Assembly: GCA_031265955.1 (NCBI GenBank)
Contig: JAISBY010000010.1
Span: 248,001-312,000 of the forward strand
Length of the DNA: 64,000 nt
From: Mycoplasmataceae bacterium
Lineage (GTDB): Bacteria > Bacillota_I > Bacilli_A > Mycoplasmatales > Mycoplasmoidaceae
Direction: 5' to 3'
The notes beneath the pieces are model-generated. The model searched no databases. It worked only from the letters and a program-made list of their open reading frames with translations, and had not been told where the DNA came from. The translations under genes and the position numbers were made by a program. Shown here one piece after another: positions 55,473 through 57,463 of the stretch (positions within the stretch are counted from its first letter, which is position 1; the number at the start of each line of letters is the position of its first letter).

Positions 55473-55501
55473 TTGTATTAATTAGAATATGTTTGTATAA
55501 T
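55473..55501 (+). promoter_or_regulatory. promoter of CA-leader locus 3
   Basis: TTGTAT (55473-55478), 17 bp, TATAAT (55496-55501); the leader ATG at 55509 is seven bases downstream. The best-formed promoter of the three CA leaders. Confidence 0.65.
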
Positions 55502-55508
55502 GTGCTTT

Positions 55509-55586
55509 ATGAGGGATGAAATCTTAGTAGTGTTCCACACACACACACACACACACACACACACACACACACACACAGCAAACTAG
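55509..55586 (+). CDS. CA-repeat leader peptide, locus 3 (early-stop phase)
   Basis: 25-aa ORF MRDEILVVF, seven His-Thr pairs, AN, TAG at 55584-55586. One CA more opens the frame through the hairpin to TAG 55669-55671; one fewer leads to the TAA at 55606-55608, at the hairpin base. The ATG is close to the predicted transcription start, so translation would be leaderless. Confidence 0.55.
   Translation: MRDEILVVFHTHTHTHTHTHTHTAN
55536..55577 (+). repeat. (CA)21 microsatellite inside leader ORF 3
   Basis: Forty-two bases of pure CA, the longest of the three. Confidence 0.97.
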
Positions 55587-55608
55587 TTTTTCACAACACA
55601 CTAATTTA

Positions 55609-55641
55609 ATACAAGCAGTAAACACTACTGCTTGTATTTTT
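55609..55641 (+). terminator. terminator-like hairpin in leader 3
   Basis: Perfect 12-bp stem ATACAAGCAGTA (55609-55620) with TACTGCTTGTAT (55626-55637), loop AACAC as in leader 2, then five T (55637-55641). The stem core differs from leaders 1 and 2 but pairing is kept. Confidence 0.8.
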
Positions 55642-55681
55642 ATTTTCTCATTAAAAATTTTAATAAATTAGGAGAAATAAA

Positions 55682-57463
55682 ATGAAAATAAATAAAGTAG
55701 ATAGTAACGAGAAACATCAGATTAAAAACCGTCGTAAAGGGATTAAAACCATGCTTGCCATTAGTGCGTCTGTAGTCGGCGCTGGCGCTGGTATTGGAAT
55801 TGGTTATGCAATATGACATACAAATAAAACTGAACCTGTCGCAGTGATTCATGCTCCCAACACTTTAACATCAACAGTTAATAAATCAGGAAGTTTCACA
55901 TTAACGGCTACCGATAGTTTAAATCATCCTTTAATTAACGCTCAATGGCACATAATAACTGATTATTCAAATTTGTTTAGCGTTAACGAAACCACTGGAG
56001 AACTTTCATGAACCAATCGGTTGGATCCAAGTTTAACATACAATATTTTGATAACATGCTCTAGTGACAATTTACCAGATGCAACGCACGAACTGCAAAT
56101 CATTGTACAAACACCACCAGGATATAACGTCATACCATTTTCTCAATTAGTCATTAGTGGCGGGATTTTCGAAGGTTTACAAAGAGATGGTGATTATATT
56201 GCTCCACCTGGAGCATCATTAATTTTTCCTGAAGAAGAACATGTTTACGCCATCTATAAAAATGCTTTGGATGTTAGCAAATACTCATCAGATATGCAAT
56301 TACAAAATATTTCATACATTGATTTCGATAATATCGTTGATGTGGGTGATTATGCTTTCAATGGTCTAACAGGATTAACGGGCGAATTAAAAATTTCCGA
56401 TAACATCAGTCATATTGGTGTTAATGCATTTGCGAACACATCTTATACGACAAACAACATAAGCGGTTTATCTTATTCTTATACCGATGATGTACACCAC
56501 AACCAATGATTAATCAAGTCTACATTAGAGGACACTGTAAATTATTTGAAAATTGATGTGTTTGGAATTGCTGATCAAGTATTTAAAAATAATACACATA
56601 TTAAAACTGTCGAAATTACTACAAAGTTAATGATCACAGGTAACGAAACATTTAGTGGTTGCTCAGCGCTTGAATCATTTGATTTGGCAACAGGAGAGAG
56701 TTGAGAGGTTTTAAGAATTGGTGCTTATTGTTTTCAAGATTGTGCCAGTTTAACTTCCATAGATTTTCATAGCGCCGTTGAGTTTGTTGATATTCGAGCT
56801 TTTTTTGGGTGCGCAGGTTTGCAACATATTTATAATATGGATTACGTTCGAACAATTGCTTCTGGGGCATTTATGAGTTGTACTTCACTGCGTTCCATTT
56901 CATTACAATCTTGTCAAACTATTGCTCAAGGTGCTTTTAGAAATTGTACAAATTTACAGGAAATATGAATCAATACTAACCAAACCCCACAAAACATGAA
57001 TGTTAGCAGTAATGCGTTTACGAATAGTGCTAGTGGAAATAATCAACTTGGTAGATTTATTGATTTGAACAACGGTCCAAATCGCGATGCAATGAAAACA
57101 TTTTTTAATAATCTATCTACCGATACTTATTTAAAAGAATGAGGTTATATAACTGGGGTAACAATTACCGATGCTCCTAGTACAATTTCTGGAATTAAAG
57201 ATAGTTCAATTACATCAACCGACGAAATTATTACACAAGATAATTTTGGTATTGCCATGGACAATGGTTATTCGGTACAATATTCCGTTGACGGAACATT
57301 ACCAGATGGATTATCCATAAATTCTAATACCGGAGTAATTTCTGGTACTCCAAGTGTAGTTGGAACATCTACTATTAAAATTCAAGTAATTACTAAATAT
57401 CCGTTCCCTGCTGCATCTTTTACTTTTTTAAGCGGAGATATATCCATCAGTATCACCGAGTAA
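55682..57463 (+). CDS. BspA-like leucine-rich-repeat surface protein with putative Ig domain
   Basis: 593 aa. Anchor ASVVGAGAGIGIGYAIWH (~26-43), a beta domain (HAPNTLTSTVNKSGSFTLTATDS...), two scattered blocks of LRR_5 repeats (SHIGVNAFANTS, NETFSGCSAL, GAYCFQDCASL, SGAFMSCTSL, QGAFRNCTNL), and a C-terminal putative Ig domain DGTLPDGLSINSNTGVISGTPSVVGTS of the He_PIG type (~535-565). The CA-leader upstream is in the early-stop phase. GGAG ribosome site. Longest of the family in the window. Confidence 0.83.

Follow-up and report, generated by a model that had tools for sequence, protein, structure and literature searches.

Phase-variable expression by means of a repeat tract within a leader ORF has been described for the pil1 and pil3 loci of Streptococcus gallolyticus, in which GCAGA repeats switch expression (Danne et al., 2014, PMC3894217). 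Expression is low when the leader stop codon lies 39-49 nt upstream of a hairpin and high when it lies 4 nt before, within or after it, and switching is lost when the leader ATG is removed or chloramphenicol is added; the evidence comes from repeat variants, from mutants of the ATG and of the terminator and from chloramphenicol treatment (PMC3894217). In a literature search weighted to open-access papers, these two pilus loci of one streptococcus were the only examples of repeat-driven leader-frame attenuation found.

The genome examined here is that of a mycoplasma relative, a group known for its few transcription factors. It consists of a 980,658-base assembly of 11 contigs in which TGA codes for tryptophan, and the window is the 64,000-nt stretch G000:C3:248001-312000. 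A (CA)12 run, expected 0.00 times in shuffled windows, is present at three places in the window, which has three leaders with such tracts (Table 1). The third of these, leader 3, precedes a gene whose product has an LRR_5 match at E=1e-29. Its divergent upstream neighbour (window 54552-55454, minus strand) encodes a DUF5378 membrane protein.

Table 1. Features of the three tract-bearing leaders of the window and of the genes that follow them (window positions).
Feature	Position	Strand	Remarks
Leader 3: weak -35-like TTGTAT	55473..55478	+	3/6 match to TTGACA; absent from the consensus scan list
Leader 3: -10 box TATAAT, exact	55496..55501	+	7 nt 5' of start codon ATG 55509-55511
Leader 3: ORF in assembled phase	55509..55586	+	peptide MRDEILVVF(HT)7AN; predicted OFF
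Leader 3: (CA)21 tract	55536..55577	+	presumed slipped-strand switch
Leader 3: TAG, end of assembled frame	55584..55586	+	21 nt 5' of hairpin
Leader 3: TAA, end of second frame	55607..55609	+	overlaps hairpin base by 2 nt; predicted ON
Leader 3: 13-bp terminator hairpin, loop AACAC	55608..55638	+	U-rich tail 55639-55648
Leader 3: TAG, end of third frame	55669..55671	+	frame crosses hairpin; 30 nt 3' of hairpin; predicted ON
Gene 3, putatively switched	55682..57463	+	593-aa surface protein, N-terminally anchored; BspA-type LRR_5 and He_PIG domains
Leader 1: -10 box TATAAT	12165..12170	+	ATG at 12181
Leader 1: (CA)15 tract	12202..12231	+	assembled frame crosses hairpin; predicted ON
Leader 1: terminator hairpin	12267..12298	+	
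Leader 1: gene for LRR_5 surface protein	12345..13865	+	LRR_5 5e-38
Leader 2: -10 box TATAAT	30964..30969	+	ATG at 30981
Leader 2: (AC)15.5 tract	31005..31035	+	assembled frame stops at TAG 31044-31046; predicted OFF
Leader 2: terminator hairpin	31068..31098	+	
Leader 2: gene for LRR_5 surface protein	31146..32786	+	LRR_5 2e-37

An earlier note on this DNA had assigned to leader 3 a promoter of the form TTGTAT-17-TATAAT; the -10 box is exact and the 17-nt spacing is present, but the TTGTAT element is weak and was not listed by the scan. The short reading frame that it had described, with an ATG 7 nt after the -10 box, the residues MRDEILVVF, a (His-Thr)7 run from the (CA)21 tract and a closing TAG, is found as claimed, and the three frame endings (early TAG, TAA at the hairpin base and read-through to the distal TAG) are exact. 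The hairpin had been given as a perfect 12-bp helix with an AACAC loop and a U tail, of which the hairpin, loop and U-rich tail are present but the helix has 13 bp. This hairpin folds with -16.5 kcal/mol (z = -7.7, with 0 of 200 shuffles equally stable) and is the sole terminator-like match within 55300-55800. The minimum-energy fold predicted for leader 3 contains long-range pairing. No Rfam cis-regulatory family has a match in the window, the gathering score being reached by two tRNAs only.

The covariance search for which the earlier note had called was carried out with a model of the three window leaders having a structure of eight pairs, covariation being counted on separate alignments. 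It found five more loci in the genome, with E-values from 2e-10 to 1e-3. In the stem of the eight aligned group A leaders, the group that includes all three window leaders, 91% of cells are paired and four pairs are changed on both sides, with a covariation score of 0.327 versus 0.02-0.09 for slid partners, and the covariation of the stem put forward by the earlier note is thus upheld. Its view that the helix rather than the sequence is conserved is right as to the helix, but the distances from stop to helix in the three frames are conserved too. The spacer TAGTTTTT..CAAC..TAATTTAA is common to the three window leaders as had been stated, but it is confined to one of the seven leader groups of the genome. 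The eight leaders of group F have 97% of cells paired and ten pairs changed on both sides, which include five of the seven pairs of a small upstream helix. This 7-bp covarying helix lies between the poly-G tract and the terminator in group F spacers (e.g., G000:C7:37895-37938) and may make polymerase pause, as the pause hairpins of classical attenuators do. A small hairpin between tract and terminator is also more stable than shuffles in several group E leaders but not in the CA groups, and for this reason it is excluded from the core mechanism. An intrinsic terminator between leader ORF and gene is predicted from the U-run, the z of -7.7 and the covariation.

At least 28 tract-bearing leaders of a common plan were identified in the genome, comprising 15 with CA, five with AG and eight with poly-G tracts. 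By sequence these fall into groups A (CA, 7), B (CA, 3), B2 (CA, 1), C (CA, 2), D (CA, 2), E (AG, 5) and F (poly-G, 8). The plan runs in the order of -10 box, start codon, tract, stop or stops, T-tailed hairpin, ribosome site and gene, so that in each case a tandem repeat with a unit not divisible by three sits inside a short ORF behind a promoter. The tract is 3' of both the -10 box and the start codon, a position different from the promoter spacer of vlp/vlhA-type switches. An exact TATAAT is found in 24 of the 28 leaders, 5-12 nt 5' of the start codon, and the other four have a -10 box with one or two mismatches 6-16 nt before it; with the -10 box so close to the start codon, the transcripts should be leaderless or nearly so. 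The distance from hairpin to gene ATG is usually 26-55 nt, and in group D, where the hairpin is weak at about -5 kcal/mol, it is 168-227 nt. Counting from six units upwards, the genome has 23 dinucleotide tracts (18 AC and five AG), 20 of which lie in leaders of the common plan together with the eight poly-G tracts, while no tri- to hexanucleotide tracts were found at the thresholds used. As all tract units are of one or two nucleotides, each single-unit step shifts the frame.

The genome also has related leaders in which the tract is short or absent (L053, L054; C3:240058, 379482, 486165; C5:73339; C7:15930). Three of the tract-free ones stop at or inside the hairpin and two well upstream, a mixture that favours neither assignment of the ON state. 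Some leaders have beside them, in divergent orientation, a repeated element whose motif is GTAACTATTCACCG...(CA)n and whose CA tracts are not leaders (G000:C3:320843-320872, 463168-463191; L070, L073, L075, L077, L079, L081, L066). This element recurs in two congeners, often at contig ends.

Most of the genes behind the 28 leaders encode N-terminal anchors or lipoprotein-like signals as read from their sequences, those of group A encoding BspA-type LRR_5 proteins. There are two exceptions. In group E, an AG leader (C11:7789) precedes a zinc-dependent alcohol/polyol dehydrogenase (G000:C11:6649-7810, minus strand), the one clearly metabolic gene in the set, and in group D a RelB-like antitoxin is the next gene (C2:109997).

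The frames of the leaders share a geometry. In all 28 leaders of this genome, one frame or more stops short of the hairpin by 18-41 nt and one or more reaches its base, its inside or beyond, and in most A and B leaders the early TAG is exactly 21 nt before the hairpin. Group C has no through frame and only a TAA at the hairpin base; in group F, a single frame reaches the hairpin. With a rule of one frame stopping at least 13 nt upstream and another reaching the hairpin, each spacer being shuffled for the null, 66 of 67 leaders including those of congeners conform (the congener leader L284 does not) versus 47 expected, a difference the joint significance of which is overstated since paralogous leaders are not independent. 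Taken on the seven groups alone, with each leader conforming under the null at a rate of about 0.7, the test would be no more than suggestive, and the strength of the evidence is that the geometry recurs with different repeats, with different hairpins and in different species. The assembled phase is hairpin-reaching in six of the 28 leaders versus 13.3 expected at random (P = 0.0025), so that phase is not random; in congeners the corresponding figures are 15 of 37 versus 20 (P = 0.06). In leaders 1 and 3, as in the others listed, the through frame stops before the gene or overlaps it out of frame, so that this is not simple in-gene frame switching.

We consider it very probable that these leaders are phase-variable, ribosome-operated transcription attenuators in which tract length sets the frame. 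The anatomy, frame geometry, helix covariation and recurrence in genome and genus are observed in the DNA itself, and from these we infer that the leader is translated, that the tract slips, that transcription terminates at the hairpin and which frames are ON or OFF, as follows. Polymerase would start about 7 nt after TATAAT, almost at the ATG of the tiny leader ORF. The CA, AG or G tract would gain or lose units by slipped-strand mispairing and so shift the frame. In the OFF frame, the ribosome would stop some 18-41 nt before the hairpin with its footprint clear of it, the terminator would fold and transcription of the surface gene would end; in the ON frame or frames, a ribosome at the hairpin base, inside it or beyond would block the helix and polymerase would read on. 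Since a ribosome that terminates shields roughly 10 nt past its stop codon, the hairpin stays free with a stop 18-41 nt away but not with one at its base. We also lean, with less assurance, towards a wider reading, in which a genus of Mollicutes runs its surface coat with at most some 30 independent, heritable, ribosome-read attenuators per genome, assembled repeatedly from different microsatellites and terminators, as a combinatorial display system under the control of leader frames, and in which the small hairpins of group F (covarying) and of the AG leaders (often predicted) may pause polymerase and synchronise it with the ribosome.

Could the leader frame instead alter translation of the gene by coupling, with the hairpin merely a spacer or stability element? 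The read-through frame of leader 3 ends at a TAG that overlaps the AGGAG ribosome site of gene 3, and several other read-through frames finish 13-38 nt before their gene, as such a switch would have it. However, the leaders of group C and most of group F lack a frame that finishes near the gene start, their hairpin-reaching frames ending at the base of the hairpin or within it, and the hairpins bear the U-runs typical of intrinsic terminators. We regard coupling as an unlikely replacement for attenuation, to which it could be an addition.

A second explanation, and a very improbable one, is an attenuator that senses amino acids, in which a starved cell's ribosomes would stall at the His and Thr codons, as they do in the leaders of the his and thr operons. 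The (CA)21 leader, with its seven His and seven Thr codons, is superficially his-leader-like, but tracts of AG (Arg-Glu) and poly-G (Gly) precede the same kind of surface genes, the genes downstream are not biosynthetic and conserved regulatory codons matching a pathway are absent. Nor was a conserved competing antiterminator helix found. CA tracts moreover encode the same residues, His-Thr, in every frame, so that codon use is uninformative on frame.

About equally improbable is that a small RNA or a protein recognises the tract, the length of which, not the frame, tunes expression. Length tuning has a precedent in Helicobacter pylori RepG and the tlpB G-tract, and here too the tracts lie within the transcribed leader. 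Against this, three different repeats occupy the same slot, all with frame-shifting units and none trinucleotide, the start codon is 5' of the tract and the stop positions are conserved in three frames. The least credible reading of all is that the tract is a neutral microsatellite and that the hairpin simply ends a short gene or small RNA. Small RNA genes, too, consist of a promoter, a short transcript and a terminator, but nearly all dinucleotide tracts of the genome are in this one position, the hairpin is 26-55 nt before the gene ATG except in group D, and the promoter scan of 55300-55800 recognised no separate promoter between the leader 3 hairpin and gene 3.

The plan of these putative attenuators recurs within the genus, though with other sequences. 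The earlier note had proposed a search of relatives as well; the group A covariance model has none in 35 congeners, making group A species-specific in this sample, but the architecture is present there with other repeats and hairpins. AG tracts were found in 25 of the 36 genomes of the genus, and many of those in congeners are leaders of this plan, the products of the genes behind them being lipoprotein-like, anchored or DNA-methyltransferase-like; in all, congeners have about 40 further AG- and G-tract leaders. F-type leaders in a second species have a quite different terminator sequence but keep the frame arrangement. Four congener leaders (L247, L248, L249, L308) are AG leader-attenuators before DNA methyltransferase-like genes, and these would switch methylation patterns if the attenuators work. 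CA tracts are few in congeners, and most of them are in-gene or in another repeated element. Outside the genus, the leader-terminator plan is absent from all 29 AG tracts examined as a negative control, many of which read as DNA methyltransferase genes, and leader switching therefore appears to be a speciality of the genus within the sample. In the nearest named genome, Mycoplasmataceae bacterium Cc175_bin84 (ValRS 67% identity), a 14.6-kb locus is without such tracts.

If the leaders act as proposed, they would be a main switch of the surface repertoire in a small genome, seemingly reached with three kinds of repeat. The predicted state of some 28 genes is readable from DNA as tract length modulo 3, so that long reads or single-cell sequences could serve to predict expression in mycoplasmas that are not in culture. 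The set is also a natural series for testing the distance upstream at which a stopped ribosome lets the terminator form.

Like in-gene switching of the kind found in restriction-modification 'phasevarions', the leaders use the same repeats and presumably slippage, but in such switches the protein itself is frame-shifted, without a leader or terminator. In-gene switches do exist in the genus, in congener methyltransferase and specificity genes and in the present genome at G000:C3:221748-221773 (L034), where a (CA)13 tract lies in the first codons, the downstream frame resembles a membrane acyltransferase and the gene is out of frame in the assembled phase, as in a classical in-gene phase switch. 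Poly-C and poly-G runs of 8-10 are seen within the starts of lipoprotein-like genes at many places in this genome and suggest a second contingency class, of the in-gene kind. Simple repeats also switch mycoplasma surface proteins in the vlp (poly-A) and vlhA (GAA; PMC6258824) systems, but there the tract changes the promoter, whereas here it is downstream of the -10 box and start codon. As with pyrBI-type and trp/his-type attenuation, the position of the ribosome on a leader ORF would decide formation of a downstream intrinsic terminator; unlike these, the input would be a heritable change of frame and not nucleotide or amino-acid supply, and conserved regulatory codons are absent.

The closest likeness is to pil1/pil3. 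Both have a repeat tract in a leader ORF, a terminator before the gene and genes for surface proteins (adhesins in pil1/pil3), with one frame ending upstream and others at, in or after the hairpin, expression having been measured in Streptococcus and being predicted here. Particular to pil1/pil3 are the GCAGA pentamers, the ribosome site of the leader, the limitation to two loci, the pilus operons and a walled coccus as host, and particular to the mycoplasma leaders are the CA, AG or G tracts, the near-leaderless start, a number of loci of at least 28 per genome, the Mollicutes background and the LRR and lipoprotein-like genes. This would apparently be the first repeat-switched, ribosome-read attenuation in Mollicutes, although priority is not certain; the logic is known, and what is new here is its regulon scale, the near-leaderless start and the three repeat types.
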